A DNA stretch of 64,000 nt from Phytoseiulus persimilis (taxonomy: Eukaryota; Arthropoda; Arachnida; Mesostigmata; Phytoseiidae): NCBI GenBank assembly GCA_037576195.1, contig CM075101.1, positions 11,160,001-11,224,000 of the forward strand. Reading direction: 5' to 3'. Below the pieces are notes generated by a model. The model made no database searches. It was not told the origin of the DNA and saw only the letters and a list, made by a program, of their open reading frames with translations. Each line of letters opens with the position of its first letter. Positions within the stretch are counted from its first letter, which is position 1. Below, in pieces: positions 1 through 60,976 of the stretch. The translations under genes and the position numbers were made by a program.

Positions 1-37
1 GGTTCCGGGATACCGGCGCCGGCAAAACCAACAAAAA
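1..37 (+). CDS. omb-like: Gene A (Tbx2/3-class T-box factor, 3' part): end of T-box exon
   Basis: This is the end of a T-box exon cut by the window edge. Frame 3 reads FRDTGAGKTNKK, which is the invariant close of a Tbx2/3-class T-box (FRDTG) followed by the basic tail. Members of this class are nuclear DNA-binding repressors that set regional identity, such as optomotor-blind in Drosophila wing and optic lobe. Continuing in frame hits TAA at once, but a GTAAGG donor lies at 38. The leftover two bases (AA) join the G at 120 to restore lysine, so the splice keeps the frame. The DNA-binding part lies upstream of the window. Class assignment rests on FRDTGAGK plus the downstream LKSIQKMVSGLE element. 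Drosophila omb has nearly the same FRDTGAGK sequence as I recall it. Confidence 0.85.
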
Positions 38-119
38 GTAAGGAATGGTCAAAAAAGCATCATCCAGCTCACAGTCGGAAACGAGCAACGAGGAGTGATG
101 CGCACCTTCGGCTTTTCAG
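38..119 (+). other. Gene A intron (82 bp, phase 2)
   Basis: Short intron with donor GTAAGG and acceptor GGCTTTTCAG. It interrupts the lysine codon just after the T-box. Gene B has no intron at the equivalent position. Short introns of this size are typical of compact invertebrate genomes. Confidence 0.75.
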
Positions 120-220
120 GAGGTCTGCGGGAGAACAAGATTCAAGCGAAGAAGATGAAGGAATCGAGAGCTCGTCGAGCTCCATGCTCCAGATCCACAC
201 CGACTTCGACGTTGTTACGG
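120..220 (+). CDS. omb-like: Gene A exon: acidic/serine linker after the T-box
   Basis: This exon encodes a linker beginning RSAGEQDSSEEDEGIE, followed by a serine run and LQIHTDFDVVT. The acidic-serine composition is usual for the region just after the Tbx2/3 T-box. The exon starts after CTTTTCAG and ends at a strong donor, GTGAGT at 221. It leaves one base (phase 1), which pairs with the two leading bases of the exon at 4234 to make an alanine codon. An alternative is read-through: the same frame stays open past 221 to a TAA at 454-456, so intron retention would give a different C-terminus with no family motif. I favour the spliced form because it leads to the conserved C-terminal element. 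Confidence 0.75.
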
Positions 221-1213
221 GTGAGTTGAACTTACCCCAAGCTCGTATGAAGCTGGACACCGTCCTTCGCCTTTTCGTGCTGAACAGTTCCTGGCCGATG
301 AGTTCTGGGATTCCGACCGATTTCGGATTGGGTTATGATTCCTGGTGCCGCGCATTCCATGAGAGGCGGAAAGCAAAACCCGTGAGGCGGAGTGTGAAAG
401 CCAATTTGGAAAAATGGAACTTGAACAACGGGCGCCCGCTTCTGATTGTTGCGTAACGGCTAAGCTTCTCGGATGTTCCGCTTGCAACGGCCTTAATCGT
501 CGCTCGTCTCTCACGACGAGCCGAAAGTGACCACTTAGCTAACTCCTCTGAATAGCTTCGCCCGCGTGTGTGGTCCACCAATAGAGTGAGCACCGGCCAC
601 AGCCACAGTTGGATCTTCTGAAAGCGTGAAAACGGCAGGCTTTCCTGGAAAATTAACGATCGCCGGACTCACTCAGCTTTCGTTTCACTGCTGATGTCTG
701 AGGCGGACCGAAATTTCACGCCGACTCGGAGGTCCATCCCTTCCGAACGTGGCTGTCATGCTCGACTCGTCGAGTGCTGCCCTGGGACTCGACACGATCG
801 TGGAGACATTCTGGTTATTTTTAGATTGTCCAACGAGATGGCTCGTTCTCGCTAACCGCCCTTCCGCGAGACGACATCTCCTCGAGCATCTGACAAGACC
901 AGACCCGCCGATGAGCGGGCGGGCGGGCGGTCCCGAGCTTCCGACTCAATTTCCAGATCTCCCTTAGTCCAGAACACGATTTCCGTGGAGTCTCGTCACC
1001 AGTTCTGGATCGTGGAGTTCCAGCCTCCGCTTCCCAGTGAGTTCCCGCTCCATCAGAAGTTCTTGAGAGGGGGAGATACCGTCCGGAAGATTCTATGCCA
1101 AGGTGTCGACGACCCGTTTCGAAGGAGCCCGAGCCTCCCTCGAGAGGAACGTTTGAATCGAGTGTTTTCATGCACTATTTGTTTGTGGTGGATACGAGCC
1201 TGCACGGATAACA

Positions 1214-1233
1214 ACGACGACGACGACGACGAC
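1214..1233 (+). repeat. (ACG)n microsatellite
   Basis: About seven ACG units inside the 4-kb intron of gene A. No coding role is supported. Confidence 0.8.
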
Positions 1234-3629: not shown

Positions 3630-3645
3630 GGGGGGGGGGGGGGGG
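3630..3645 (+). repeat. Poly-G tract (16 G)
   Basis: Uninterrupted run of 16 G within the gene A intron. It is one of five long G or C homopolymers in the window. Length may vary or be mis-sequenced. Confidence 0.85.
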
Positions 3646-4233: not shown

Positions 4234-4434
4234 CTCTACGACAACAGCACGAAGATCGGATGTCGGTAGCGTTTCCCGGTTACGGCGGACATAGTTTCCC
4301 CCCGAAACCGATGTTTTCATTTGGCCCTCGTGGGGAAATGGCTGGCGAAGACGCGAGCATCGTCTCGAGTGGATCCCATACTCTCACACGATCAGCGGAC
4401 GATCAGCTGAAAAGCATCCAGAAGATGGTGTCGG
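4234..4434 (+). CDS. omb-like: Gene A exon: C-terminal region with the conserved LKSIQKMVSG element
   Basis: Read with two leading bases completing a codon from 220, the exon begins LRQQHEDRMS. It continues through a glycine/proline/phenylalanine-rich stretch (GYGGHSFPPKPMFSFGP) and a serine/threonine stretch, and ends DDQLKSIQKMVSG. The last part matches the C-terminal element of the Tbx2/3 class, recalled as ELQSIQRLVSGLE in vertebrate TBX3 and ELKSMEKMVNGLE in Drosophila omb. The donor is GTGAGT at 4435, phase 1. Both ends agree in phase with the neighbouring exons, which strongly supports this model even though the middle of the exon is poorly conserved. The element's function is not firmly established; it sits in the repression-associated C-terminus of the family. 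Confidence 0.85.
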
Positions 4435-6966: not shown

Positions 6967-7028
6967 GTTTGGAAAGACGACAGGAGCAGTTGGCGATGAT
7001 GTCTTTGTCCCGTCTGGGAGACAAGTAG
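6967..7028 (+). CDS. omb-like: Gene A last coding exon
   Basis: The two leading bases GT complete the glycine begun at 4434, giving ...VSG-LERRQEQLAMMSLSRLGDK and then TAG at 7026-7028. LE directly after VSG is what the Tbx2/3 C-terminal element requires, and the charged, helix-prone RRQEQ follows. The protein then ends after 14 more residues, much shorter than the histidine/glutamine-rich tail of Drosophila omb. The visible portion of gene A after the T-box is about 120 residues, a short C-terminus for the class. Confidence 0.85.
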
Positions 7029-8415
7029 CTGCTGGTGAGTGATCTCTCGCTTCTGGGACTCGGGGCGTTCATAGGGTTCGAACCTTGGGTGTTGAACTGG
7101 TTTCCCCTCTTCTCCGCAGTTAGCCGTGGCCTCTAGTCAGTGTCCTTCGACTGTCCGGAGCAGTTCTCCGCATCATCATCGATGGAGCAATCGAATTTCA
7201 ACACACGTGAACTCCTCGACCTGAGCTCGAGTTCGCACCCGAGGCGTGATTGCAGAGAGGAAGGAGTTGAACTTTCCAGCGCACAACACAACCGAGTCTT
7301 CATTTCGTAGATCACGATCGTTGAAAAGAGGATTCTTCGACGAGAAAATATCCGCCGAAGGCGAAAGCGGCAGCTGAATGTCTCGTTTGAGATGCACGGA
7401 ATCGACAAGGCGGCTCCGTCAGAACTCCTTCGTTCATGCTATCCGACCGCGGTCCCTCATTTTCGATTGTCCCCCGCCTACTCCCCTCATCTGTGAGTTC
7501 CGAGTTCTCTCTATGGGTGATCCAGGGAGTCTCTTCGAGAATTAGATCCTGTAGGGGCTTCTCGCCGAGCTTTGGCACCATCTACGAGCGGTTGCGGCAT
7601 TCGTACAAAACCACGATCGTACAACCTCTTTATCAGACGTAAACCAGAATCAGATGGTCCCTGTTCAGGTCTGTGAACGGGAACGGTTTGTGCCGGGTCC
7701 CCGCCTCCGCTGTAAAACATCAACGAAAAGTTACTCTGCGATGGAGCGCTGAAATCAAGTGAAAACCCACAATGCATGACCATGAAGAAGAAGCTCAACT
7801 CAGTTCGAGTTCGAGCGCCATGCGAAGTGATTCAGTCGATCGTGAGCAAGCCGCATAGTGCTCTCGAAAGTTCCCGATTCTCAAGGGACAACGTCAGGGA
7901 AAACAGGTTATTCCGACAGATTTGGAGGTGAGGAATGGGTCCAGATTGTAGGAGATCGTCAGCTCGCTCTGTACGCTCGTGTAAACTGTTTCCGATTCTG
8001 TTGGGACGAGGGAAGCGATTTCGGAGAGCGCCGCTGTGCGAACGTGAACAAACCAAGGCTCATATTTGTGTGCACGTCTTCCGAGCCAAGAACGTGATCA
8101 ATTCCACGTTGAAAATAGTTCACATATGATTGTGTCATGACGATATGAGGGCTGCATCAGATCGAGAGGCTGATATTTAATTTTGGACAAATGAATTATT
8201 GGTTGGCGTGGCCCGCAAGGCGATGAAGCTACATGATGTTAAGCGGATTGAGACATTTGTATGAAAGTTGACAACTAATGGACTCGCCAAACAGTCGGAA
8301 TGCCTGGATGGAAGTGTGCTGGGTGACCAATCCGACGACAATAACGATTTCGATGACAATGACGACAACGAAAACAAACGTTAATGATGACAACTTACTA
8401 TTGTAACAACCAAAT

Positions 8416-8421
8416 AATAAA
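8416..8421 (+). terminator. Candidate poly(A) signal, gene A
   Basis: AATAAA followed by GCTTTTTCTG. It is the first signal seen after the gene A stop. Confidence 0.35.
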
Positions 8422-8601
8422 TGCTTTTTCTGAGGATTGATTATCAGTTAGGAGGCGTGTGTTAACTTCGTTCGCCCTGTTCTCTCTCGCATGCTCCAAA
8501 ACAACATATCTGAAGTCACTCACTAAGCCGAGGCCGTCTCTCGCGCAGCTTCTCTCATAGCCATGGAATGGAAGAGACCAAATGTGCAAATGGAGGATCG
8601 A

Positions 8602-8607
8602 AATAAA
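8602..8607 (+). terminator. Candidate poly(A) signal, gene A
   Basis: AATAAA followed within 10 bases by a T-rich stretch (CCTTTTCAATAGTTTTCC). It is an alternative to the signal at 8416. Confidence 0.4.
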
Positions 8608-9870
8608 TCCTTTTCAATAGTTTTCCAACCTCTTTCCGTCATTACCCCATGTCTCACTCATTTGATGGCTAAGCTGTAGAATCCTGGATGTAAGCTCGAG
8701 CAAAGTGCTGCTCTTGCCTATTGACACCTTTTCCATGCATAAAATTTTTGGATCACCTGACTTGCACCGGCCCGCTCAGCAAATATTTCTAGCGGAAGGG
8801 ATTGTTCTGGAAACACGATAATTGAATAGGATTTCGGACTATTATAACGGCATCATCTTAATTGATGCGTGTCTCCGTGTCACAGTTTCGTTTATTGTTC
8901 GCTCGACTCACGGAGCTCAACAAGCCGAGCAGCGCAGACATCGGCTCGTTGCTCAGCGGACTAAATGCGACGAGCGTCCGATAGAAAGGAAAGAAAATAC
9001 CCGCCGAACGAATTGGGAGTTCGTGACTCATCTCGCGAGAGTTTCGTTTTGTCTGCGATGTTTTGCTTCTGGACTGTCAACATTCTCTTGTTTACGGAGC
9101 CGACGAGTTCTACTGCACTGATGATGATGCTGTTGGAGATGCTGGTGGTAGCGGAAAGGATGCTGCGTTTGAAGATCTCTCGAATGGCGCAACCTTCGGC
9201 GTGAATCTAACCAGACTGATCCACTTTCTGACTCTCGCTCTGACCGTCGGTACGGCCGGGAGTATGCCAGGCCTTCTCGATAAGTGCCCGGAACGTGCAT
9301 ATACGATACGGAATTCATGACACGACCAATGAGCATCGACCACGGGGACGATCGCGCGCGCGAAAGCGGTCGTTAGTTCAAGCTAGAGCTCGTCGAGGAG
9401 ATTCGCTCGGCCTCGCAGCTTGGAGTGGAATCGGTTTCCTCAGGTGATGCATTCAGTTCGGGGTCGCTGGGATATCTTATGTATCTGAGAACGTTCGAGG
9501 CTCCGCACCCAACGAGACGAGACAGGCGCTAGCTCGGCAAGCAGAACTTCACTCCGAAAGCCTTCGAAGCAGATGGTGCTCGCAAACACCGTTGGGAAGG
9601 ATCAGTTCGCATTTTGGCTGGCGCGATGGCTGCTTGGCTATTCAGTTCCGAACAGACCTCATTATGCTTCTCGTTTCACAGCTTGCGACCCAGACACCGG
9701 CTCGACACGTGAAATTCATCGAGTCGCACATGAATTTTTCGCGGCTGAGAGTAGCGGAGTCGCGAACCGGTTCGCGAGGATTCCCGCAGCGGGAGAGGAC
9801 ACCGCGCTGGTTCCTGCTCGAGCGGAGAGAACTACTCCGGCGGACCGTGGGCAGACGGAGAGGGACTGAT

Positions 9871-9878
9871 TATATAAG
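9871..9878 (+). promoter_or_regulatory. TATA-box-like element
   Basis: TATATAAG set in G+C-rich DNA. It lies 4.1 kb upstream of the gene B start codon. It could mark a distal promoter of gene B, but no initiator or transcript evidence supports it. Confidence 0.15.
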
Positions 9879-12748
9879 AGCACCGGAAAACGTTCCCGCT
9901 CCGTCCGACTCGGGAACGAGAGAATTTCCAGGACTCATGGATCTGTTCTCGTTCCTCGTCTTCCCCTCGACTGCCAGTGTCGCTCCAGGTTTGTGAACAC
10001 AACTATGCTCATAATTGCAGGCGGATCGTTGAATACAATGAACGTTGGATCCGCTCAGCGCCGACCGGCTCCGCAGGATCATACCGGTCGACGAGTGAGT
10101 TCTCTGGATGACCGTTGCTTCGCCGTCGATGCCGCTTATCGCGGACACAGAAGAGGGTTATTACATTTTTCCGACCGATCCGCTCGCCTCCTCCATGTTG
10201 TCGCCACCATTTTACGGCCGTTACCGCCACCATAACCACCGCACAAGTGAATCAGCAGCGACTCAATTTTTTCTGACATCGGCGGGACGCCACGATCACC
10301 CGGCGCCCACGGAAAAGAAAAAACTCTCCTCTGAATCTTGTTTTTCCACGCAGTCTGATCACGGATGAGCCTCGATCGCTCGAACATCGTACGCTGGGAA
10401 CTAGTGCAGGAATTCGCCGATTCCACGGGGATCGCGCCTGTCCCGGATAGGAGCTCGGGACTTTCCTCAAGGTCAGGTCAACGTGGACCATGTCCGAAAT
10501 TGGTTTTTTCCTCTCTGGGACAACGGGTCGTCGAAGCCTCCCCTGCCCCTTAGGACGGCGTTGAGAAAACTTCCTGATCTTCGCGGGTCGCCAAAATCGA
10601 GAGCGTCGGGCCAATCGCGAGACGGAGGTCGAGAGCGTTCACGATCGACTGACAGACAAATGCGACGGTTGGAGCAGGGTTGCAGCTTTCACGCTTCCCG
10701 GGTGTGCAGCCAGTTTATTCAAAGATCAATTCTTCATCTGAAGTAGCGGCGGTGTGTGTTCGCGTCCGGATGCTGATCCCGAAGCCGAATGCTGAGTCTC
10801 GCTAATTTTCCTTCTTCTCTCTGCTGCCGACAGCTCCGAGACAAATTATGATTTCTTTCCGGAAAAGTCTCAGCTTGAACCATCCCAAGGAGCCGCGACT
10901 ATCCAGCCGCTCATCGAATCATGGAAGTTTTCCAGGCTTCTGACTCAGGCTTCGCCGCAAATAACTTCCGAATTAGAGTCTGTGACGTTCGAGGGCGTTC
11001 CGAGACTCGTTTCGGATGGCCCTCCGATCCCAAGCACCGTCTTCGAATGTCAAGCAAGAATGCTTCCGGCTCTTCCTACAGAGGAAGAGCGAGAACCCCG
11101 CTCCAGACGCGCAGCAGCCCGACGGACGACACTTTCGCCTCGACGTTCGAAGTCCGAGCTCACGCACGGAAAGCCGCGGCTCCCAACTGATCGTCGCTCA
11201 GTGGACGTGCTGACGCGCGGCTCGGTTTCTTTCCAATTTGCCTCGTTTGAGAACAGAGAAGAAGAGAATTCTAAGGAGAGGGTTCCGTCTTGGACGCCGT
11301 CGCATTCGTATTTCCACGAACGGAGTGCTTATGATTGTTCCATTGTTCAAAGAGCGTTCAAGTTGAAGCGAGATTTTGGAGTCCCACCGGAATTTTGAAG
11401 TTCGGATTTCATTCATTGTTTCACACGTTCGGGAATGGAAACATTAAGTGCGTGTGAAAAACGGGGACGTCTTTCGCTGGTGCCCTCGCGAGGCGGGAAG
11501 CCAGTTATGGTCATGATTTTCGCTGCTTATTTTTTGACGCGAAATCCCCTCAGGCCTCGACGACATTGTTGCAGGAACTCCCAATCTGTATCGTGGAAAA
11601 TTTCTGTGGTGAGGGAGAGCAGAAACGACGTCATCAAAGCTCTTCAACGAATGAAAAGAACGAGAACCGCTCTTTTCCACGTAATTCGCGCGAATTCAGA
11701 AAACAAAACCTTGGTGTAACCGCGTTGGCCTGTCGTTCTGCCGGGTCACGCTTCCACCGAATGAGCGGACGGATCGACGCATTTTTTTCCTTTGTGAGCA
11801 TCTGGGTTGAACCGGGGGCAAGCTTGCCCCGACCGAATTTTCGCTTTCCTGCTAGGTGCCTGACGCCATTCGATTACGTCTGACGTGTTCACTTTGATTT
11901 CGCGGAGATTTCGTCGTGTTTGGTGTAGTCGTCGTCGTCGTCGCTGATCTGACGGTGGCCGGCCAACGGTGCTGTTAGCGATGTTGCTGTAAGGTTTGCC
12001 CGATCAAGCAACATGATCGTCTCATCATTTCGACTCTGGCGTCGATTTGTTGTCGGAGCTGCTAAAGTCCCGCCCCGACGTTTGGCGCCGTCAGACGCGA
12101 CGGCGAGTCTCGGCTTCGCGTCTGGCGTTCCCGCATTCCGCCGCTGATCGTTACCTTCCTTCCCTCGTTCCTTGCTGCCTAACTGCCTACTCGGCTCGCT
12201 GGCTGTCTACCTGACTGTGAGGGCCTCGGGGGTCTTGCGGGTCGGTGTCGTCGTCGAAGATGGGCAATCGTGGTGGTGATGTACCTGCAAGGGCGACGAC
12301 AACGACGACGCAATCATCAACAGCATTGCCTACAGGCGCGTCGGATTGTAATTGGTCGCAGCTCGACCTTTCTGCTGATTTTCCGCAAGGTTTTCTCTAA
12401 CGGGTTCCACGCCAGCCACCGCATTTCTCCCAATGGAAGGCGCAGCCGCAATATAGACTTCTGGAGGACGCCTAAAATCTTGGCGCCGTGGGATAGTTCC
12501 AATCCCATCTTGAAGCAAAATGAAATCGCTTTGCTGCGGAACTCAGGATTCAGCGCCAGCTCATGGACGAGGTCCGAAGTCGAAGCTCGTCGTGCCCGTC
12601 TATTTGAGGAGATATTCATGATTCGAAGGAAAAACGAAGAGGCTTCTTCCCGATTTTCAGTCTATTCTTTGGCTCCCTCTCGCGATCTTCTGGATGTGAA
12701 TCTCTTCCCCATCAGGCCGCAGCTCATTGCGCGTTTAACCAAAGGGTC

Positions 12749-12860
12749 CCTCTCTCCCCTCTCCCTCAACTTCTTCTCCCCCTTCCCCTCCCCTTCTGGT
12801 CGCCCGTATCTGCCCTCTTCCCCGTTCCCCAACCTCACTTCGCTCCGCTTTTCCCCGACT
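12749..12860 (+). repeat. Polypyrimidine (C/T-rich) tract
   Basis: About 110 bases that are nearly all C and T on this strand (purine-rich GA on the other). It lies 1.2-1.3 kb upstream of the gene B start codon. GA/CT tracts of this kind are common at arthropod promoters, where GAGA-type factors bind; that role is inferred. Confidence 0.5.
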
Positions 12861-13464
12861 CAAATCCTCGTTCCTCCGCTCTCTTCGTCGCGTTGTTCCC
12901 TCCTCTCACACATTCTACACCGTGCAAAGCGCCATCCCACGCTCCCTCGGCGCTTTTTCCCCCGGTGTGCTCCCGCACACTTCGCCATTCTCCGCTTCCC
13001 GCTGGCTGCGTTCTCTCCCTCCGTACGGGCACACATACAGAGCGGAGGAAAATTATCGCGGCGCCGGCGTGGGCTGGGTTGCCGTCGTGGTCGCTTCTCC
13101 CGCGCGCTCCTCCATCAAGACGACGGAGTCGCCGCTGTCTTTTGTGATGGCAGCTTGCTTGAATGGCTGCTCGCGGAGAGTATTGCTCCTCGCTTGCAGC
13201 CAACCAGCCCGCCGGCCCTAGGTACCGCGGCGGGCTGCCAACGAGCGAGTGACCGAGTGGGAAAGCGAAAGACGGAGTGCGTAAGTGAGAGAAAGCGAGC
13301 GCGCCGGCGCCGTGGCGAGCCGCCGGCGAGTTGTCGGAGTGTCGAAGAGAGTGAGGGGGCGGAGCCTCGTTGGGGTGAAGGGAGGTCTTCGGAGGAGGGC
13401 GCAACGTCGGCGGCCGCCGCCGCCGCATGAGCGAGGGAAAGTCGCTCCGGCCCAAGGATTAGCC

Positions 13465-13578
13465 ATGGCGAGCACCACCAACACCAACAACACCAGCACC
13501 ACCACGATCAACGCGAGTACCAACACCATCGTCACTACCAGCCGCCGCCGCAGCCGCCGCCGCCGTCGCAGCAACACT
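13465..13578 (+). repeat. Trinucleotide-rich leader upstream of gene B (CAC/CAA/CCG)
   Basis: Dense ACC/AAC units followed by CCGCCG and CAG units, about 450 bases upstream of the gene B start codon. A very similar composition precedes gene C (59480-59625). It probably lies in the 5' UTR or promoter. Confidence 0.6.
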
Positions 13579-14028
13579 CGATGTGATGACGATGTGCTCG
13601 TCTTCTGACTTGACTCTGTTCTAGCTTTACCGTCGTGAGCAACACTTCTGCTGCGTCCGTCTCTTCTGGTGTTGAGCGCCAGAAGCTGCTCTCCTGTCCC
13701 TCGTCGCTCACTCGGTAATTGGTGGCTTGGGTGACCGTGGTCTCTGACGGGGAACTGTTTTCTCCAGTGGAAGTTCAAAAGCGCAGCGATACCAAATCGA
13801 AAAGTGCAAAGGAGACAACCGTTCTGACAAGTGCCACAGAAAAGAAACCCCGGGCCCCGCGGCTGAGATCCCGTTCAACTGCTCCGTGAGGTCAGAGTGA
13901 ACTCTGCCGAGTGACGTCGGTCGCGGAGACTCGATACGGTGCAACTGTAGTGGGCACCTGAGGAGCCAAACCATAGGTCGGATTCGGGTCGCGGTCTGAC
14001 CAAGGCTTGGACCCAGAGCTCCGGTACT

Positions 14029-14264
14029 ATGCGAGGTGGAATCGATGAGCCGGGAGCTGACGCCGTGAGCGAAAAGAAAAGAGTCGTGTCCAGCAAGCAC
14101 CACAAAGATTCGGACCAATCGATGGCGCCTCGAAAAACATCCGACTTCAGTATGATGTCGATCCTGGCTGACGAGTACGACCCCAAGGTGGTTCTCGAGA
14201 GTCAGGAACTCTGGGAGAGCTTCCACAATCTTGGCACAGAGATGATCATCACCAAATCTGGAAG
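14029..14264 (+). CDS. omb-like: Gene B (complete Tbx2/3-class T-box factor): exon 1
   Basis: First coding exon of a 374-residue T-box protein, made of exons 14029-14264, 22686-22953, 23786-23935 and 24360-24830. The product is a nuclear sequence-specific DNA-binding regulator of the class that in other animals represses targets during appendage, eye and neural patterning. Residues 39-46 (DFSMMSIL) form an eh1-like Groucho-binding motif. The T-box opens at about residue 51 with [20 protein letters not shown], then EMIITKSGR. The start at 14029 is the first ATG in frame. ATG 14122 (residue 32, MAPRK) is a plausible alternative that keeps the eh1-like motif. The donor GTGAGT at 14265 splits the arginine codon (phase 2), as in gene C. 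The N-terminus is short and lacks the roughly 50-residue spacer seen in gene C. Confidence 0.9.
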
Positions 14265-16078
14265 GTGAGTACTCCGATCGCATTATCATCCACCAAGTTG
14301 GCTGCAACACGGTTTGAGTCAGTTTCTAGATATACCCTCTTCCGTCCGATTGGTGCCGGTTTTTTCTCGAAATTTCGGGCTATCTCGTTGTCAACTTATT
14401 GAACTGAATGAGCGAGATCGATCGTGCCGAGGCAAACAATCAACTTGGTTTGTTCAGCGCGATGCTCGACTCGAAGGCAGCTGGGCGCGCACAGCTGCAT
14501 GACCGAGGTGCCTAATTAATATTCACGAGGTCGATGGAGGCGATCGCCAGTGGTGAGCGACCTTCTGCTTGCAGTTCTCTGTCCCGCGAAAGATTTTTCA
14601 CTGAGTAACCGGGCGCAGTCGCTCGACGCTTCGTTGATGCTTGCTCATGATCGCGACCATCTTTTACGGTCAAGTTCCGCATTTGACAACAAAGCCTACG
14701 AGCTCGAGCGGGCTCGTCTATGTTGCCGAGAGTTGGCGTGATCGGACTCAGCAGTGGTTGCTGGTCATTCAGCATGGACAGTCACGCTCCTCGCAGTCAT
14801 AGCAAAGTGTTCCCACTCCTCAACCACTCGAACCAACGGTACGGGATCTGTCCTCGACACGGACCCTCATCGAAGAATCGATTCTCCAATCCGCGCACTC
14901 GGTGCTTCCGACGACTCGACGAATCGATGCCGGCGCTCTGAGGGAAGTTCTACAAACACCGAAAAACTCGATTCCCCCGTTCATGCCATTCACAAGACGG
15001 TCAAATGAACGACTCTTTGACGGCGGTACCGAAGGCCCTACAATGCCACCTTCCCACTTTTACCTCTATCGACTCCGAAGTGAGCGCAGAAAATTGCCCA
15101 GAGCGGCCCCAGTCTCCATCTTCACGTCCCATTTTTTCACTCTCCCCGGCTACCTACGTTACGTACGCAGTTACTGTTTTCGATTACGCTGGCGTCGGCC
15201 TGACTGACTTTGCTTAACGATGCACCCAGGGCACAACTAAGGTAACCTGCGGCTGGCTGGCTCTGGGTGCCCCTAACAATATTCTCAATGAACGTAACTG
15301 CGCGACCGAGTCATTATCGACCGAGCCACAATTCAAGTTCGCCTGCCTTGACGAACTCGTTCCATGACGTGTTCGTTAACCAGACGCACCGCTCGGACCC
15401 GACCGTCGGAAGCTTCACGGTGTTCTGCTTCCGACCATCCAAATAGCTGATTCCGCCGTCTGCCAAATCTCCAGACGATCCGCGTCTCGTCCCCCAACAG
15501 TCGCGAACAGTTGCTCGAAAGTCCCAGCGGAAGAGTTGGCGCAACTTGAGCGTTAATCCTCCTCCCTGCCCGAAAGTCAGGTACCGGGCTCTCCAACGCT
15601 CAACACGAAACCGGACGATTCAGTATCAATGAGCAGAAGTCTCTGCCCGAGAACAGGCTACGCGGAGCCGCCCATCTCGGCGCGCGCGAGAGGAAAAGAC
15701 ACAAGTGGGTTTAAAAGTCAATTTTCGAAGGTGGGAGATGACGCCAGATGATTAAACGTGTCTGCGGCCGTGGCAACGGTTCGATGTGAGCGTCCGTTTG
15801 TGTGCAGGGTCTGCGTGTGAGAGCGTCCAGGATCGATGGGTGCTCACTTGTTCAATCGATGGTGGCTTGTTAACACTTCGGTCCGCGTCGAATAGATTCC
15901 CGTGCTTGTTTTAGACGAGTAATTCCCTCCTCCGACTTCGTCTTCTTCGTTCTGGTCGTCTAGGTTTTCGCAGTCGTCTTCGTCGTCGCAGTCGTTGTCG
16001 ACTCCGTCCGCTGAAATTTCGTGAGTTTGTGAGCTTGTCGTTGTCTAAACTGAGGCCCGAGCGTGGACGGCTACCTCG

Positions 16079-16100
16079 CTGACTGACTGACTGACTGACT
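16079..16100 (+). repeat. (GACT)n microsatellite
   Basis: Five perfect GACT units in intron 1 of gene B. Confidence 0.85.
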
Positions 16101-19100
16101 GGCGTCTTGTTCTCCCTGGATGGCGTCTTCATGGCGCGCCACGACGGGCTTTACTGACGCTTTACGGCGTCGGCGCTGATGAGTATCTCATTCGAAAAAG
16201 GCGAAGTCGGAGTTCCTCCGTCGCTCCGACCGCGCTCACCAGCCACTCATCCGGTCGCTCGACGAACAGTTCCAGGGTGCCTTCGGTCAGGATATCGCGG
16301 GAACACGACCTGCGTACCAGGATCCGGCGGTTTTCCGAAAAAGAGTCTGCGTGGAAACCAGGGGGCGGAAATTCATCGTTTCTGGAGGAACTTTTCTGAC
16401 CCTCGATCAGCAGCGCGATCTTGGACCTCAGAATGCAGTTGAGCGGCTCCGCCAGCAGAGGTCGCAAAAAGAGGCTCAGGCCGTGGACGCGCCAGCCAAG
16501 ACGAAGTTGAGCGGAGACAATGATGAGGACCAACGAGCCAGCGAGCAGCAGAGTGTCGACAATTAGCCTCCACAAGGATCATTACGTTGCGTTGTTCAAA
16601 CATCTGCCCATGTTTTCTGTGTGTACTTTTCTGCCCGCTTGTTTCGGAAGCAGCTGTTCGCTCGTTTTTCATCCTCTCGTCTCATGCTTTCTTCTTTCTT
16701 TGAAGACTTCTCGCGTGTTGTAAAAAACATAGCCGTACACTGTTCCGTACGGATACTTCTCACTGTGGACTCCCTGCAAGCCGCTTACGACGGCTCCGAT
16801 GCCTCGGATCTCATGGTTATCCGGCACGATCACGTTTTCGAAACAATTGTTGCGTTTTCTTCACGAGCTGTTCCGGTCGTCTTCTGGGCTTGCCAGTGGC
16901 AAGGAATACGGAGGCGTAACCTGGGGTAAGCTGGAACCAGAGAACACAACCATCTACCATCCGATGTGTTGATTCGGGCCTGATTTGAGGAAACGATATT
17001 TCGCAAGATATCCGCACAACCGATCCAATCTTTGCCATCCTCAGGGGCTTCGGAACAAATGTCAGCCTGAAATCGATGAGAAGCTCTTGTGAGCTGCGAG
17101 AAGTCGTCGGATTTGATGAGCTCTTGTGAACGGAGGTCTGAATTGATGGATACCGCGACAACTGTCAATAAAACACGACAGAAACAATGAGGAACGATAT
17201 GTGATGACCGGCGCAGATAGGATCGCTTGATATCCGGCAGCAGCAAGGTGTCATCTTTTCTGACGTATGCTCGGGGGACACATCACCTGAGCCTTCTGTT
17301 TTTCCTTACTTCGTTTGTCTCCTTATCTGTCCGTTCATCTGTGAATTGTATCTACTGCCCGAGCCGTTTCGTCTCAAGTCGACGATGCTCGATAGTTGCT
17401 AGCGACGCGAAGTAACGACACGAAGGGAAAATAACACTCGCTTATCTTCTTCGACGGGGAAACGCTCCGGTGGCTGACCGAATGAGTTGTCAACATTTGC
17501 GGCCGATTCGAGAACGGAAAAATCCAACAGCGGAGTTGGTCACTGCGACCACGCGGTCACATAATCGCTGCGCCTGAACTAGCGACGAAGCAAGATTCCA
17601 GAAGACACAGATCGCGTTTAGAGCAGACGAACAAAGCGCTAGCTGGTCTCGGCACTCCTGTCGGCAGAATTTTTTTTTCTGGCGATTCGCGGCTCGTTGT
17701 GTCATGCTTCGCGCTTCAGACGCGGCTCTGCTGGCGCCGCTCTGAAGGGTGCCTTCGCATAAATTCTGCGAACAGGTCGACAAGTCAGCGAGGCGTTTGT
17801 CTCCGGTCTCACGTACTAATGTAGTTTGGAGCTCGGTGCTGCCATATTCCCGCGAGGCAAAGAGTCACCTGTCTGCCACGCGGCGTTCGCACCATCGACT
17901 CTATTAGCTGCGAGTGTGCCCGCTCGACGGGCTTTGTCCTCTATCTGACTCCGTTAGCTTGTTGCACTGTACTGGGTGCGCGTGTTCCTTCCTCTAACCC
18001 TTGGTCGGAGAAAAAGTCTCCGTTGTCACTTTATCTTCTCGTTACATTTATTGAATTAGCCAAAACTCGAGAGCACACTTGTTCCAGCGAGCGTTGAGAT
18101 CGAAGCACGCGGAGCGCGACAAACAGAAGAACCAACGAGGAGTGGATTGAATTGCCAAGGGGACACGGAAAAAGAACACCACAGCCAAAGAAGAACACGC
18201 TTGTGCAGTTCCCACGACGGAGGCGAGACCAATTTGTTCGAAGCCTGGTTTGCTCAAGAGCGGAGGGCTTCGCGACCGGCCAATACATTGTGGACTTGCT
18301 CGATAGAATTCGCCGAGCAGACTCTCCCCCCGCTCGCTTGTGCCCGAGTTTGTTTGGTTTTTCGCTCCGAGGAGAAATCTAATTCGTGGAAGCTGTAGTT
18401 TCCCGAATGCGGAAGAAATTCCGAGGCTCGGAATCGACGAGGGGAGCGTTCGGCGTCACGGCACGAGAAGATTGAGTTGATCTCGGAGTCGGAAGAAGTT
18501 TCCAATTCAGCGTGCTTGCCCACAGCGGCGAGATATGTCCTCTGTGGTGGGGAATCGTCAAGGGATTCGGGCCTGTGGTCTCGGTCGAACTCTGCCGTTT
18601 TGAAAGACGATGAAATCGAATTACATCGTCACACAAGGAAAGAGAGTAGATGAAGCAACCAACGAGCGGATGGATCGAAAGACCAAGAACAGCTTTTGTG
18701 ATGGTAGCGAGCTGCTCGCCACACCACTGCCATGGGAGAGCTATGAGCACATTGCTTGGCCACCGTCGAATTATTAATTGTGCCCAAGACACGTGTCTGT
18801 CGTTGTCGAGTGTGTGCTTGAGAGTTCGGCTGTCGACACGGACAACATTTCGAAGTCATTTCAAAATTGAATCTCACTGACTTCTAACCGTGTTAGGGCA
18901 TTCATATGCGCAACCGTGACAGCTCTGTCGCATGAGACAGCGTGTCCGACCGTCTCTACTGCTTCCTCGTGTGCACGACGTTCACGTGCACGAACAGGCC
19001 GCCCTCGTGGCTGAAAAGCTTCGATCAGATGGACGGTCCTGCGAGATACGTCGGGAGTGGTTTTTGCTCGCTACTGCATCATTCTCCTTGGCGTGGAGCT

Positions 19101-21749
19101 GTCGATCCGCGGAATTCCGAGAGAACGCCAGATCAGAACTCGCCCGACATGTTACCGAGGGCATGGAGACGACGGATCCGGAGAAAAGCACCACATGGGA
19201 GTCCCGGAAAGGCCGCGGACGCCCCCTGAACTCCGGTCTGGCTCGGCGCCAGTCGTCTGGGTACAGGTTCCAGTATTGGAGCCTGATCCGCGTACCTTTG
19301 CTTCGTCTCACCTAGACTCCGTTCTCGGATCGACTGTGGGTCCCACCAGTCCGAGTTCTTCCATTTCTTGCGGTGTCTCATCAGAAGGGTTCGTAGACAC
19401 TTCTCGGCGTCAAAGTGTTCCGGAAAGCAGCGGAGCAAGAGTTAACGCCTGCTCGGAGTTTTTTTCGGACAATTTTCGCAGAAGAGCTATGAGACTCCCA
19501 GAGGCTCCGTGGACGCTCCAAGATCATCTACGGGTTCCGCGAACGTCGTCGGTCCAGACGCTCGTCTTCGTTCGGCCGATTAACGCCACCAGATAACACT
19601 GATACAGGAGTGACTGACGGCCTGACTGAGTCGGGACAGAAACACAAAAATGCGCGTCGTCGCCCTCTCAGTCACCCACGTTCAGGAGGCGACACTCGTT
19701 CTGTCCGCGGTTTGGCGTCAATTGATTCTCGCCTACTTCCGAGCGGGTTCCCGAGCGGGTGATTTCGAGAGCGACGCTCTGTCCGGACAGCTGATGAGCG
19801 CAGTTCTGAATCGCTCATCGTCGGCTTCGGACTTGCGAGCGTTTGTCGTTTCGATAAACACTGACAGTACGGTGCCGCTATCGATTCCGCGTGATCGTTC
19901 CAAGCGAGCCTATGAGCAATTAGCTGGCGCCAAGCGTTCGCTGGTTCTCCAAACCCTCAGCGCAACCCTTGGAGGCGTCGACGATGATGATTCGCGTTAA
20001 TCAGGCCACCGATACCGGAGAAGATTCGGAAGAAACCCTGCTGCCGAAAGCTGATAACCCGACACGAAACACAAGAACTAAGCGCCACTCGTATAAGGTT
20101 CCTCCGTCTGTATTGGGTTTCCTTTTTTTGTTTGCGAGACCCGTTGACGCGAATCGCCACGCTTCTGTGGAAGAGAGGAGAACGGTTCCGAAACGATCGG
20201 ATGCGATGCGCTAACAAAAACCTGAATCTTCGGGGGGACCGCGTAATTTCTATGAAACCAACGCCAGAGCGGAATCAATTGTCGCCATCTATCACGGTCT
20301 GCGCCGGAGGATGGCCCCGATACATCGCGATCAATAAACATGCACTCGTTGATCCAACAAACTACCACGAGCGGACGCGTCACGCCAGCCGCGCATCAGA
20401 CTCTCAGAGCACGAACCCCGTGACGCCGTCTTTGGGGTCTTTCGGGCGCCGTTCGGGAAACTTTCACACAGGACAGCCAACAAGTTGTCCCGCGGCATAC
20501 CTGCTTGGAACATGCTCGTCGAGACGAACTCATGCTCCGTCGGACTTGAGCATAAGTTGTCGCGACATAGTCTCGACTAATTGGTTTGTGAACTAACATT
20601 GCATAAAGGAGCTTCGTTGTTTGTTCGGGACCGACTGGCGCCATGTCGACCGCGTCATCCAGAACGACATCATCCAGACACCGGGCCGGAGACCCGAAGG
20701 GGAAAAGCGAAAACAATGGATCACTTCCAAGTTCACAACTGCTCTGGAAGCTACCGGCGCGGCTTTCCATTGTGCTCTCGAAGAGGAATCGGCCGGAGTT
20801 CGCGTTCGAACCTCTGTGTCGGTGCCCGATGTCTGCTTTCACTGGCTTGCTGCGATGCGATGCTCGCGATCTCCGATCGTTCGCGTAGGGGAGTTGTCGC
20901 GAGCTGCGGATCGCTATGAGGCTCCAGAGAGCGTTGGCTCACACTGCTACCGGTGCTGCTGCCGCCGCCGTCGCTGCTCGCAACCCTCAATCAGACACAA
21001 TTTACACGGAGGTGGCTCGTCGACGTGGTGGTGGCTGGAGCCGACGGACAGGAACGCCGAATACTGAGACGTCGACTCACGTCGAAGAGGCAGAAGTCGA
21101 AGTTAAGTAAATAGACTTCGATTTGGCGGCAGCGAGCTACGCGACTCTGTGGCTCCAGCCGAGAAAATTACACCTTTTGCCTTAAGCGTGTTCGTTCGCT
21201 TACGTGAATACGATGCTTAACAGTCCGGGAGCGAACAGGTTGAAGCATTCCCGATCGAAGAGCGCGGACTGTCCGCGGCTGATCACCGGGTCAACTCCCG
21301 CTCAAAACGTCGTCGTGGCGCTAACTGGGTGGCTTTTCTTTGGATACCCAGCTCAGTGGACAAACAGACTCACGGCCCCTCGTTCGAAGGACAATTGGCT
21401 GTCAAATTGAGACGTCTTGGTGATTCTGCTCGTCTTCTGTGTCTGCGGTAGCCCCCGGATCGGCCGGTTCCCCCAAATCCCGCCCTCCCCCCGTTCCTTC
21501 TCCCGATATTCATTCCTCTGAGCGACGACGCTAACAAGGCCTCGACTTGACGCCGCCGATTCCCCGATCGAGGGGCTTGCCGACGGTGTCATATGAGCGA
21601 ATAACTCTGGCGACAGCCCAGAATATAAAATATGGACGTCAATGTACCTCGGCCACCAGCTATCCGTTAGGTTTGTTTGTTTGTTGGTTGGTTTGTTCGA
21701 GCGTCCCCGTGCGTGTGGTCGAAATGGATTTTCAACGACCTGATCATTG

Positions 21750-21762
21750 AACACACACACAC
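21750..21762 (+). repeat. (AC)n microsatellite
   Basis: About six AC units in intron 1 of gene B. Confidence 0.7.
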
Positions 21763-22685
21763 GAGGCACCGCGTCTCGCGAACTTCGTCCATTTTGGAAC
21801 GCAGCATCACCATTCGGATTCAGTTTGCTCAGCCTGTCCAGAGCGAGGCGGCGATGCTGCGAAAAGTAGAGCGAGCCAGAACGCGTCGGCAGGAACAGAA
21901 CGAAATCACTCGCGGTTCGACTGCGTCGATCGAACTGCCGTCGAACGAGTTTCATCGGTGATTGTGTTTGTCTGTCGACGATGCTTTTGATCGCGCGTGC
22001 GAGCCAGCCAGCCGGCGAGCGACAAGAGCCACTTACGCGTCATTAGGTCGACAGCTCCGCGATACAGCTTCAACTCCTCCGATTTTGCAAGGAGCAACCA
22101 CCCAACAAAGTACAAGAAGCTCTGTGGGTTTGAGGGTGGTGGAAGCACCGAGCTCCGGTGACACCGGCAGAATTGAGTTGGGTATTGGCTCCACGGCTGG
22201 GTTCGACACCCGGCAACTGTTTCGGACGATCGTTCCCCTGTCTTGCTTACTCCTCCTGAATCCTACCGGCCGGCCGGGCGGCTTTCTTGTCCCATTCCCG
22301 CCAGGCTCCTTCGCCTAAGCCGAACATGCTGCTGGCGATGATCACGGCATCGGCAACAATTTCTCTTCTAAGAAAAATGTTTCGTGCTCCTATTTGTGGT
22401 AGACACGCGTTGCCCTTCGTTAGAACAATCTATCGACGGGAGAAAAATGTCCTGCCCATCGAATCATGGCCTCGCTCTGAGACCATAGAGGAGTGGCCGT
22501 TCGCTGCTCTTCGAACTCTGGGCTCAAACGCCGTGAAGCGCCTGGGGAGCGCCGAAGGTAACAGCGGACGGGGCGGCGGACAACGAATGACACTCAACGA
22601 GGGAGTTTCGGGAAACCAGTTCCTCCGGGAGCTTCAGCAGACCTGCGGAAGATCTGTTTCTAACGAGGATTCTTCTGATTTTCAG

Positions 22686-22953
22686 GCGAATGTTCCCTCC
22701 GTTCAAAGTCCGCATGAGTGGACTCGAACCGAAAGCGAAGTACGTGATGCTAATGGACGTAGTGGCGGCCGACGATTGTCGTTACAAATTCCAAAACCGT
22801 CGATGGGTCGTCGCGGGCAAAGCCGATCCCGAGATGCCGAAGCGGATGTACATCCATCCTGATTCTCCAGCGACCGGGGAGCAGTGGATGCAGAAAGTGG
22901 TTTCGTTCCACAAACTCAAACTCACCAACAATATCACTGACAAACACGGATTC
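22686..22953 (+). CDS. omb-like: Gene B exon 2: T-box core
   Basis: Residues 80-168 of gene B. The first base completes the split arginine. The exon then reads [19 protein letters not shown], a [15 protein letters not shown] segment, [28 protein letters not shown], and [16 protein letters not shown]. These are hallmark T-box elements, including the DNA-contacting RRMFPPFKV and [10 protein letters not shown] segments. [20 protein letters not shown] is characteristic of the Tbx2/3 class. The acceptor is TTTTCAG and the donor GTAAGT at 22954, phase 0. The exon boundary after HGF is the junction at which vertebrate TBX3 carries its alternative exon 2a, as I recall. Confidence 0.95.
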
Positions 22954-23785
22954 GTAAGTAGCTCGCTTCGAGTTTTGCTTTTCCTTCTCTGCTTTTCCTG
23001 CAAAGCCGCTCTCCCGAGAGATTCTCCGGAGTGGTGCAGGATTAGTGCGGGGCAGATTCAGGGCGCAACCAAACGGGGTGGCGGGCATTGCAAATCAAGC
23101 GAGTGCTTTTTCCTCCTTCGTCGGCGGCGGCGGAGCCTCTTTCGCTCCCCGGAGTGGCCCAGGATGGAGTTGGTCCATTGTCGTTGGTCCCCAGTGCCAT
23201 CTTGTCTGTCGGAATTGTCGTTCATTATGTCTCCATGGAGACAGGGCCTGCCGCCGCCGCCGCCGCAGCCGCTGGTCCTATAGCGACCCCGCGGGGCTGT
23301 GCTTGCGAGTCCTGGATCTTTTCAACCGGAGGAGCGTAGCATCTATCTGTCTGCAGCGTGTGTCTATCTTTTCGAGCTGTTGGTTCTTTACTGGCGAACT
23401 GATTCGTCTCTCGACTGGGTTGGCTCGCTCGCTCGCTGGGGCGGCTGCTCCCGTCAGGTCGCGTTCACTCCCGACGACAAGGGACGACGGCGAGCGCGTT
23501 TCCTCCGTGAAGCTCCCGATTCCGAGAGCCGCCGCCCCAGGACAAGATAATGATGCTTTGACCGATTCAACGAATCGGACTTGCCTCCAGAGCTCGCTTC
23601 GTACGAGCCGGCGGCCCCGACCAATCGCAGCGAGCTCAGGTGCTCACTCGTTTCCTGAATCCTTGCCACAATCTAAGAGAAACGCGGAGTGTTTATGAGG
23701 AGCGTCGTGATTCTCTTCGCGGAAACGCAACCGAGACATACAAATGTCCTACCGCCCCTTCTCTGAGCCCAGGTCTCCTCCACAG
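22954..23785 (+). other. Gene B intron 2 (832 bp, phase 0)
   Basis: Donor GTAAGT, acceptor GTCTCCTCCACAG. It includes a CCGCCG run near 23250. The long open frames here are extensions of exon 2 with no family homology. No alternative 2a-like exon was recognised. Confidence 0.9.
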
Positions 23786-23935
23786 CAAACCATCCTGAAC
23801 TCCATGCACAAGTACCAACCGCGGTTCCATCTGGTGAAAACGTGCGACCTCGCCAAAGTTCCCTACTCCAACTTCAGAACATTCGTCTTCCCCGAAACGG
23901 AATTCATCGCTGTCACGGCCTACCAGAATGAGAAG
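23786..23935 (+). CDS. omb-like: Gene B exon 3: T-box, [11 protein letters not shown] to TAYQNEK
   Basis: Residues 169-218. It reads [17 protein letters not shown], then [18 protein letters not shown], then [15 protein letters not shown]. This is the second half of the T-box, with the VTAYQN dimer/DNA-contact segment intact. The segment [12 protein letters not shown] departs from the usual RANDILKLPYST of the class, so this copy has diverged locally. The exon begins with one glutamine before TILNSM, one residue more than vertebrate TBX2 has at this junction. Both introns flanking it are phase 0. Confidence 0.95.
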
Positions 23936-24359
23936 GTACAATCAATCTCCATTGCACTTTCGTCTCTAGGTACTCTTCCGTCTGTTCCATGATTTCCGTG
24001 TCCTGGCGTTCCGGAAGCAGGCCCGAGGCAGCAGCCAACGCATGTCCATGATATTGACTCGAGCTCTGTTGGTTCGAAGTATTCATTCAAATCCAATACA
24101 TATCTGGTTTCTCGAGTATCTGCTCCTCGGCCGACGCCGAATCGACTCGTATCGGTCATGATTGCGGTGTTGGATTTCACGGCGCAACCTTGTGTTGTCG
24201 CGTGATTTGCTTTCGCTCGGTTTCGCTGAAGCCTCTATTTCTGTCGATTGCAACGAAAATTGCTTTCGGAGTAACTGAACACCCGCTCGGTTTTGCAAGC
24301 GTGCATCGTCGCTCGGATTCCGACCGCCGGCATTCATTCGAGACGTTCTCCTGTTTCAG
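23936..24359 (+). other. Gene B intron 3 (424 bp, phase 0)
   Basis: Donor GTACAA (weaker than the others), acceptor TTCTCCTGTTTCAG. No content of note. Confidence 0.9.
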
Positions 24360-24830
24360 ATAACCCAGTTGAAGATCGACAACAATCCGTTCGCCAAAGG
24401 TTTCCGAGAAACCGGAGCTGCCCGCAAAGATAAACGCAAATACGCGTTGCCGCCGGCATCGAAGTCGGGCGTGCTGCAGGCGCTTCAGACCGGCGGACCG
24501 GTTCCCACCCGGCTGAGCGCCACGGACGACGACTCCGAACCCGAAGACTCGATGGCGATGTGCGCCGGGAGTCCGGGCGTCGGCCTCGGCCTGCCGTCCT
24601 CTCCGTGCTCGCCCCCGTCGCCACCTGCACCTCCGATAGCTGCAGACTACCTCCTCCAGCAGCAGCTGGCGCAGTATCGCCAGTTCCACGACATGCTCCT
24701 CCTCGCGCAGTCGCATCTCACAACGGCTCCGCAGCTGGACTCGCAACTCGCGATGCGGAATTTGCTGCTCTCGCATCTGTCCAACCGCTACAACCCTTAC
24801 GGAAGACCTCCGTCGGCCGGCGAGCACTGA
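24360..24830 (+). CDS. omb-like: Gene B exon 4: end of T-box and short C-terminus
   Basis: Residues 219-374, stop TGA at 24828-24830. It opens [19 protein letters not shown], the diagnostic close of a Tbx2/3-class T-box. Then come the basic RKDKRK (240-245, a probable nuclear localisation signal), an acidic DDDSEPED (274-281), a proline-rich stretch (about 295-308), and a leucine/glutamine-rich probable helix ([11 protein letters not shown], then MLLLAQ). The end is hydrophobic-polar, [14 protein letters not shown]. Unlike gene A there is no intron after the T-box and no LKSIQKMVSGLE element. The whole C-terminus is about 137 residues in one exon. [10 protein letters not shown] also differs from the canonical FRDTG. 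The ORF is intact and there is no sign of pseudogenisation. Confidence 0.95.
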
Positions 24831-27627: not shown

Positions 27628-27673
27628 CCGTAAAGTTGGTTTGGTGTGGCGTGTTTATAGCCAGTAGTCCGTT

Positions 27674-53237: not shown

Positions 53238-53255
53238 TCTATCTATCTATCTATC
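53238..53255 (+). repeat. (TCTA)n microsatellite
   Basis: About four and a half TCTA units in the gene-poor interval. Confidence 0.8.
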
Positions 53256-57263: not shown

Positions 57264-57281
57264 CCCCCCCCCCCCCCCCCC
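57264..57281 (+). repeat. Poly-C tract (18 C)
   Basis: An 18-C run just after a further CCCCCCT, so the stretch is almost pure C from 57257. Confidence 0.85.
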
Positions 57282-58732: not shown

Positions 58733-58749
58733 GGGGGGGGGGGGGGGGG
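58733..58749 (+). repeat. Poly-G tract (17 G)
   Basis: A 17-G run right after a GTGTGTGTGTG stretch, upstream of gene C. Confidence 0.85.
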
Positions 58750-59479: not shown

Positions 59480-59625
59480 GCAGCCGCCGCCGCCGCCGTT
59501 GCTGCTGCCACCACCACTGTCGTCGACAACAACACCACCACCGCCGCCGCCGCCGCCGCCGCCATCACCACCACCACTATCACCATCTCCACACCAACAC
59601 CACGGCCACCACGATCGTCACCATT
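59480..59625 (+). repeat. Trinucleotide-rich leader upstream of gene C (CCG/CTG/CAC)
   Basis: Runs of CCG, GCT and ACC units about 1.1 kb upstream of the gene C start codon. The composition resembles the array in front of gene B (13465-13578). Confidence 0.6.
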
Positions 59626-60553
59626 TGGTATTGGCAGGCAGGCAGGCCGCGAGTCGACACCAGTCGACAAAGCGATCGCTCTCGTACTGGCCCGTCAGCG
59701 CAGGCTCCTCGCAAACAGTGTGTCGTCCCGATGAGCAGTGAGTGATCCTGGGAACATCTTTCGAGAGACTGATCCTTGCCAGGAGGATTTCGACGACGAT
59801 TGGGGACGGTGCAGCCGCAGATACACCTGCCAGTCCCGAAAACCTTCATGAGGATGTACAGCGGCGCTCGTGGATGAGAACTCGCGTGTCCCGTCAGTTG
59901 CGCCGAGAGCTCTCGCTACGTGTGCTCCTCGATTGTGAATTCACGGTTCTTCCTCCGCGTCTCGGCGAGCACGTTAACTCTAGTTTCGCGAAGCCTCTCC
60001 CCTGATCGCCGCAGTGAGTGTTCTGATCTGTGCGAGGACTCGTGCAAGCGAGAAAATCATTCGGCTTCCATCTTCGAGGAAAACGTTCAACTCGAACAGA
60101 GACGTCGCGCGCTTGAGCTCCCGCGAGCTCAATAGTTGCAGCGGTGGACAAACGGAGGCAGCACGAACCTCACGGAATGATTTAAAAGAGAGAACAAACA
60201 GAAACAGAGGAAATCGATCGGATTCATCAGGAAGAGACGATTCCAAAGTGGTCCGATGAGTGGCTGAGAGACGCGGTCTTTGACGGGGTAGGAACGAAAC
60301 CCCGCATCGTGACGAACTCTGTGTAAATGTGTGTGTGCGCGAGTGTAATCCCGGAGCAAACTTTAACTCGTCGGAAGTGACTCAATCTCTTCAATCTGAA
60401 CCGTCGCGCGTGAAGCTCTCATCGCCAACGACGACCGGTTCTCGATCGCCGTCGCTATCTCCTTAGTACTGTCCTCCGTGTTGCTCCATAAGTGCTTGTG
60501 TGTCCTCGCGTCTAAAGTCGCGCAGTGCCCTGACGTCGCCGACGCGTCCGTCG

Positions 60554-60574
60554 ATGGTAGTTGCGTGCTTCTGA
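60554..60574 (+). promoter_or_regulatory. Upstream ORF 1 of gene C (6 codons)
   Basis: ATG...TGA encoding MVVACF. Its stop overlaps the next ATG as TGATG. It is relevant only if the transcript includes this segment unspliced. Confidence 0.3.
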
Positions 60575-60600
60575 TGTCTGAAGTCCTGTCGTGCTCCTGA
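60574..60600 (+). promoter_or_regulatory. Upstream ORF 2 of gene C (8 codons)
   Basis: ATG...TGA encoding MSEVLSCS. Its TGA overlaps an ATG at 60600 (TGATG) that is in frame with the main coding sequence. Confidence 0.3.
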
Positions 60601-60647
60601 TGCGGTTCGACATTTCGCGAGCTTCGGTTCCTTCGCTCTCCAGCGCA

Positions 60648-60976
60648 ATGGCCGCTTTTCACCCGAACCCGTTCCAGATCCTCGGGACGACGACGTCGCC
60701 GCAGCCGAGTCAGAGATCGAGTTCATCGACGACCACCGATTTCTCGATGCATTCGATCCTCAACCAGCACGGCGGGAACAGTCCGAACGCGGCCCAGCTT
60801 TCAGTCCCTCCGGGACTCCTTCCCAGCCATCTGCTGGGTTCACCGTTAGGGTCCACGGCCCCTTCAGTCGAGGACGATGGAATATGCGACGACCCCAAGG
60901 TGGCTCTCGAATCGAAGGATCTCTGGGACAAGTTCCACGAACTCGGCACTGAGATGGTCATCACGAAATCGGGCAG
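60648..60976 (+). CDS. omb-like: Gene C (Tbx2/3-class T-box factor): first coding exon
   Basis: First 109 codons plus two bases of a third T-box gene; the rest lies beyond the window. The chosen ATG has a strong context (GCAATGG) and gives MAAFHPNPFQILG. This resembles the HPF opening of vertebrate TBX2/3 as I recall it. An in-frame ATG at 60600 would add 16 residues. Residues 31-38 (DFSMHSIL) match the eh1-like element of gene B. A serine/proline/leucine-rich spacer follows, including LSVPPGLLPSHLLGSPLG, and then an acidic VEDDGICD. The T-box opens with DPKVALESKDLWDKFHELGT and EMVITKSG(R). The donor GTCAGT at 60977 is phase 2 in the same arginine codon as gene B. Gene C has the more canonical Tbx2/3 N-terminus of the two. 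Confidence 0.9.

Follow-up and report, generated by a model that had tools for sequence, protein, structure and literature searches.

Three genes of the Tbx2/3 class, here called A, B and C, follow each other head to tail on the + strand over approximately 101 kb of the same genomic region, and the existence of this array can be considered as almost certain. The locus probably results from an old tandem triplication of a single omb/Tbx2/3 gene, the copies of which have been kept as described below. The window, i.e., the whole stretch of 64,000 nucleotides that was analysed (C1:11160001-11224000 of an assembly of 181 Mb in 127 contigs, with a GC content of 50-61% per 2 kb), contains the end of gene A, the whole of gene B and the beginning of gene C. 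An earlier note on this DNA had recognized three T-box loci on the same strand, and each of the corresponding proteins covers the whole 182-position T-box profile with E-values of 9.3e-84 to 2.2e-82, so that chance is excluded as a source of the three loci. Scores obtained with the Pfam T-box profile PF00907 (positions 1-182 of 182) amount to 275.9, 275.8 and 280.3 bits for the three proteins versus a cut-off of 26, and no other Pfam domain was found in them at E 0.1. At the level of the whole genome, the scan with this profile yielded 27 exon-level matches, nine of which are located inside the array (three per gene); the 27 matches were sorted into ten genes, the counts for large families being lower bounds.

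The spliced models of the three genes (Table 1) were built from splice signals and reading frame, and all the frames of the 144-kb stretch comprising the window and its flanks were compared with each other; splice signals and frame are also the basis for exons 4-6 of gene A and for the non-T-box ends of the models. The models are devoid of internal stops and all of their introns are of the GT-AG type. Extension into both flanks, proposed in the earlier note as a way to complete the annotation, gave complete open models for A and C: gene A enters the window with the end of exon 3, followed by exons 4-6 and the stop, its earlier exons being located upstream. Gene B is indeed complete within the limits initially proposed, and the coding parts described as intact are open in all three genes. 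The first exon announced for gene C occurs on the expected strand, with a corrected start: it is modelled from 60600 instead of 60648, and the ATG at 60648 corresponds to an in-frame Met inside the exon, either Met being a possible start. Each model possesses its own start, its own stop and a full T-box, on the same strand and with unshared exons, and A, B and C are thus predicted to be separate tandem genes instead of parts of a single transcription unit. AATAAA/ATTAAA signals, which are common by chance and prove little, occur within 3 kb past each stop, the first ones at 8416 (A), 24947 (B) and 80205 (C). Two introns have the same position in A, B and C, namely a phase 2 intron that follows the first T-box exon and a phase 0 intron at GF/TILN. 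An additional intron, NEK/ITQ before exon 4, occurs in B alone and is absent from A and C, and the T-box of B contains an extra Gln at GF/Q/TILN. Gene B encodes the shortest protein of the three, with the fastest T-box (the longest T-box branch), and gene C the longest protein, with the T-box closest to TBX3.

Table 1. Features of the T-box array and T-box matches elsewhere in the genome (window positions, except where preceded by C1 to C4).
Feature	Position	Strand	Basis or remark
Gene A, whole	C1:11139337-11167028 (window -20663..7028)	+	6 exons, 428 aa
Gene A, exon 3, end of T-box ...FAKGFRDTGAGKTNK	C1:11159814-11160037 (window -186..37; 1..37 inside)	+	splice model, Pfam match
Gene A, exon 4, acidic/serine-rich, RSAGEQDSSEEDEGIESSSSS	120..220	+	AG/GT flanks, frame kept; without homology support of its own
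Gene A, exon 5, LKSIQKMVSG, first part of C-terminal element	4234..4434	+	splice model
Gene A, exon 6, ...GLERRQEQLAMMSLSRLGDK then stop	6967..7028	+	splice model
Gene B, whole	14029..24830	+	4 exons, 374 aa
Gene B, exon 1, start codon, EH1-like DFSMMSIL, T-box opening	14029..14264	+	splice model
Gene B, exon 2, T-box core	22686..22953	+	splice model; TBX3 best PDB match (query without extra Gln)
Gene B, exon 3, T-box, extra Gln codon first compared with A, C and TBX3	23786..23935	+	splice model, alignment
Gene B, exon 4, T-box end, C-terminus, stop at 24830	24360..24830	+	splice model
Gene C, whole	60600..79956	+	4 exons, 591 aa
Gene C, exon 1, MRFDIS..., EH1-like DFSMHSIL, T-box opening	60600..60976	+	splice model
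Gene C, exons 2-4, beyond window	70908-71175, 78724-78947, 79050-79956	+	splice model
T-box match elsewhere, n=1	C4 7.80 Mb		profile scan
T-box match elsewhere, n=1	C3 6.61 Mb		profile scan
T-box matches elsewhere, n=4	C2 13.03-13.05 Mb		profile scan
T-box matches elsewhere, n=3	C2 43.78 Mb		profile scan
T-box matches elsewhere, n=9 in three genes	C2 48.14-48.27 Mb		profile scan

Little else was recognized around the three genes. An open frame of 415 aa (12183-13427, + strand), located in a GC-rich stretch just upstream of gene B, exceeds the longest frame (303) obtained when the 2.5 kb around it were shuffled 300 times by mononucleotides. Its only Pfam match, TPR_10, reaches 13.6 bits versus a cut-off of 27.5; a protein-coding gene appears unlikely in spite of this length, and the frame perhaps corresponds to leader or promoter sequence. 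Ten long frames of the window, chosen from 638 frames of at least 60 aa, gave no Pfam match over the cut-off, the best one being DUF2721 on 13218-13871 of the minus strand (E 0.0005, 20.3 bits versus 28.3). Among ten long frames chosen in the flanks, two, both upstream of gene A, encode C2H2 zinc fingers (C1:11128293-11129735, some 10 kb upstream of A and on the same strand), and the other eight gave no match. Further genes may occur in the spacers. Simple sequence of the GCC/GCT type makes up the short repeats located at 40.35 kb and at 59 kb, and no Rfam family was found in the window at the gathering threshold.

With respect to their subfamily, A, B and C had all been attributed to the Tbx2/3 class, and this assignment is supported by the comparison of their T-boxes. 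Once its extra Gln is left out, the T-box of B matches TBX3 among the PDB structures with 318 bits, followed by TBX5 (220), TBX1 (202) and T (166). In a tree of 13 T-boxes, subject to a long-branch warning, the three copies group with human TBX3 at 71/99; upon removal of two long rows (C4 and C2:43.8 Mb), T still being a long row, the Tbx2/3 grouping reaches 99/99 and the A+B pair 97/97. Constraining A+B+C with TBX5 is rejected (p-AU 0.004), and a distribution of the copies among different T-box subfamilies, also considered, is ruled out by their common grouping with TBX3. Pairing A with C costs 13.4 log units (p-AU 0.0495, a borderline value), and pairing B with C costs 15.4 (p-AU 0.0095).

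The other T-box genes of the genome are of diverse types. Using composite queries, the gene at C2:13.0 Mb corresponds to TBX1/org-1 (best PDB match, 292 bits) and that at C2:43.8 Mb to Brachyury (164 bits). Three genes grouped in one 120-kb region (C2:48144573-48174915 and 48257190-48265055) are taken here to be Tbx20-like; for one of them the best PDB match is TBX1, with no Tbx20 structure among the matches. Two members of this trio, on opposite strands, have nearly identical T-boxes, and since their exon DNA is 80-83% identical while their introns give no matches at E 1e-10, they represent an old, strongly constrained duplication. At C4:7800998-7801558, a divergent single-exon T-box has TBX3 as its best match (202 bits) and contains extra residues close to the place of the extra Gln of B. 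Finally, a very divergent T-box-like match with eight in-frame stops occurs at C3:6611784-6612449, and consists of either an intron-containing gene or a decayed copy.

The earlier note had proposed a lineage-specific expansion, which would be the likeliest reading of the copies. The first duplication could nevertheless predate the lineage, because C is left unplaced between A+B and TBX3: keeping A, B and C together costs 0.13 log units (p-AU 0.22), and joining C to human TBX3 costs 0.09 (p-AU 0.43). A third tree, which includes provisional sequences of omb and TBX2 and leaves out T, and which is a lead only, gives the Tbx2/3 group at 98/98 and A+B at 97/98, and places fly omb with human TBX2/3 (83/89), apart from the three copies; in this tree, A+B+C together costs 0.00 (p-AU 0.325), and A+B+C+omb gives a p-AU of 0.193. 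These results leave room for an ancient, pre-arthropod or pre-chelicerate split of C from A/B, of which most other lineages would have lost one side, only the separation of A from B being later and local. Such a scenario, rather unlikely in our opinion, is consistent with the grouping of the provisional omb sequence, with the low cost of the C+TBX3 constraint and with the T-box identities, since C shares 89.9% identity with human TBX3 (A, 84.8%; B, 84.2%), versus 88.6% with A and 85.4% with B. However, a short C branch alone can account for this likeness to TBX3, the grouping of the three copies is obtained at next to no cost, their tandem head-to-tail linkage points to a local origin, and a single omb is reported for both Drosophila (available part of PMC4625211) and an onychophoran (available part of PMC10809584).

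The T-boxes of the array have been under strong constraint. Over four T-box segments totalling 186 codons, dN amounts to 0.102 (A-B), 0.088 (A-C) and 0.117 (B-C), and dS to 1.33 (A-B), 1.65 (A-C) and 1.09 (B-C), values of dS that are only rough lower bounds because synonymous change has reached full saturation in one segment for the A-B and A-C pairs. These values, which give a dN/dS of about 0.05-0.11 over the T-box, indicate that the copies are old, constrained duplicates, a low ratio of this kind reflecting past and not present function. Together with the open frames, the low ratio suggests that the function of the copies has been maintained, as the earlier note had supposed. All of the 51 columns invariant in TBX1, TBX3, TBX5 and T, counted where the alignment includes all four references (the row of TBX1 ends before the end of the T-box), are kept by A, B and C, whereas the C4 gene keeps 43 of these 51. 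Similarly, the eight TBX3 positions L112, W113, G129, R130, Y163, H187, T210 and N212, taken from the accessible part of PMC4625211, occur in all three copies; not all of them are DNA contacts, Y163 being, in the same source, the site of a frameshift. It is therefore improbable that at least one copy, most likely B, is no longer a DNA-binding repressor and now acts as a decoy or a dominant-negative, or is in decay: the T-box branch length of B, its extra Gln and its short protein would fit this idea, but B, whose frame is open, keeps the 51 invariant columns, the eight TBX3 positions and an EH1-like motif, and the extra residues of the divergent C4 T-box near the site of its Gln suggest that this place tolerates changes in length.

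At E 0.01, DNA similarity between the copies is restricted to the T-box exons and their edges, besides three short simple-sequence matches, and the sole repeat of at least 40 nt within the window is the one formed by the T-box openings of genes B and C. An assembly duplication, or haplotype copies set in tandem, would explain the likeness of the T-boxes and nothing more, and can be dismissed as extremely improbable in view of exons that are 74.5-85.8% identical, introns and spacers that share nothing, near-saturated synonymous sites (dS 1.1-1.65) and exon numbers that differ between the copies. Depending on the exon, protein identity brings together different pairs, exon 2 being A+B-like and exon 3 A+C-like. 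The FKTFVFRETEF stretch of A and C may be the ancestral arthropod form instead of a product of gene conversion between copies, as a provisional fly sequence suggests.

Outside the T-box, the copies resemble each other at their N-terminal end and differ at their C-terminal end. One EH1-like heptad, defined as F-x-[IVLM]-xx-[IVL][IVL], occurs N-terminal of each T-box, namely FSVRSLL in A, FSMMSIL in B and FSMHSIL in C, and A and B have in common an APRK shortly before it. The heptad was found in 233 (A), 76 (B) and 379 (C) per 20000 shuffled N-termini (1.2, 0.4 and 1.9%, respectively). The C-terminal LKSIQKMVSGLE element is clear by eye in A only, in comparison with a provisional reference sequence, and DDQLKSIQKMVSGLERRQEQ occurs near the C-terminus of the same protein; an A-type element of this sort is presumably typical of Tbx2/3. 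In C, the best ungapped match to the element of A is RCDLSNMEALVDSLQQQQST, which 321 of 2000 shuffles equalled, i.e., chance level, whereas the best match in B was equalled by 41 of 2000, slightly better than chance. B may thus retain a weak form of the element, but the split of the copies according to their C-terminal elements is a weak one, because the best matches of B and C have similar scores. With regard to known members of the subfamily, Copley (2005; PMC1310626, in the portion available) describes an N-terminal EH1 motif in fly omb (written bi/omd), marginal in TBX2/TBX3, and PMC4625211, in the part available, states that TBX2/3 repression depends largely on a C-terminal domain.

The preferred reading of the locus, an old tandem triplication, would involve a first duplication into C and an A/B ancestor, followed by the separation of A and B, the sister copies of the trees, with C being probably the nearest to the ancestral form. 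Taking into account the intact invariant columns, the T-box of each copy very likely reads the same T-site, and each copy probably represses its targets, partly through an EH1-like motif that would recruit Groucho. The copies, which differ in the ways described, were probably kept by dividing expression domains and co-repressor contacts among them. Whether they have become subfunctionalised repressors with a true division of labour is, from their sequences, a question on which our opinion is evenly balanced. By analogy with omb, their roles would probably concern dorsal appendage and related patterning. In a stricter version, which is doubtful, a single pleiotropic repressor would have been split in a modular manner, A keeping the C-terminal element, C a DNA-binding domain close to the ancestral one together with its long N-terminus, and B hardly anything besides the T-box and the EH1-like motif. 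Groucho-dependent and C-terminal repression, and perhaps appendage, eye and neural roles, would then reside in separate genes, and the modes of repression would be separable by simple knock-down. More generally, three old constrained copies with different termini would offer a natural dissection of the parts of a Tbx2/3 repressor according to their role.

The array should also be useful for chelicerate evo-devo, in a genome where the Hox genes are scattered as well. A search with the Antennapedia homeodomain gave as the best five of the 42 matches listed those at C1:2.22, C1:33.41, C2:37.21, C2:51.47 and C4:11.27 Mb, which we tentatively take, from their signature residues, to be Antp, Ubx, abd-A, Scr and pb; two further high-identity homeodomain matches, each in two pieces, occur at C1:5.08 and C4:26.88 Mb. 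Scattered Hox genes are described for the phytoseiid Metaseiulus occidentalis (assembly of 151.9 Mb, PMC7738191) in the consulted portions of PMC4862073 and PMC6902594, and such an arrangement makes a mite likely here, perhaps a phytoseiid. However, PMC6902594 also attributes clustered Hox genes to another phytoseiid, Neoseiulus cucumeris (173 Mb). Since the available part of PMC6902594 reports the absence of Scr from Ixodes, M. occidentalis and N. cucumeris, either the Scr label of the gene at C1:2.2 Mb is wrong or it speaks against a phytoseiid. No telomere repeats were found at five chromosome ends, a sixth end consisting of N only.

It is common for transcription factor genes to be duplicated in tandem. 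Drosophila omb presumably possesses a C-terminal element like that of A. Like A, B and C, Drosophila omb/bifid associates a Tbx2/3-class T-box with an N-terminal EH1-like motif (available part of PMC1310626), but it is the sole Tbx2-subfamily gene of the fly in the account of PMC4625211, as far as available, compared with three copies here. In the available part of PMC10809584, a second onychophoran omb is reassigned to Tbx6/doc, and PMC13353597, in its available part on a spider, describes omb as a dorsal appendage factor that is conserved. No report of tandem omb copies in a mite was recognized in the literature search; the expansion may already be visible in the T-box tree including M. occidentalis to which the available part of PMC7738191 refers as a supplementary figure. 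Human TBX2/TBX3 belong to the same repressor class, and the T-box of TBX3 is 84-90% identical to those of the copies. This human pair results from genome duplication and occupies separate chromosomes, in contrast to the local tandem array described here. Tandem T-box arrays also occur in flies, where Doc1-3 and mid/H15 are linked, neighbouring and intact T-box paralogues. They belong, however, to subfamilies other than that of A, B and C, Doc1-3 being Tbx6-like and mid/H15 Tbx20, and mid/H15 are called redundant in the available part of PMC9167623. Within the same genome, the trio at C2:48.1-48.3 Mb resembles the array in bringing three paralogues together in one chromosome region, but differs from it in that one of the three lies on the opposite strand and that the member tested has TBX1 and not TBX3 as its best PDB match.
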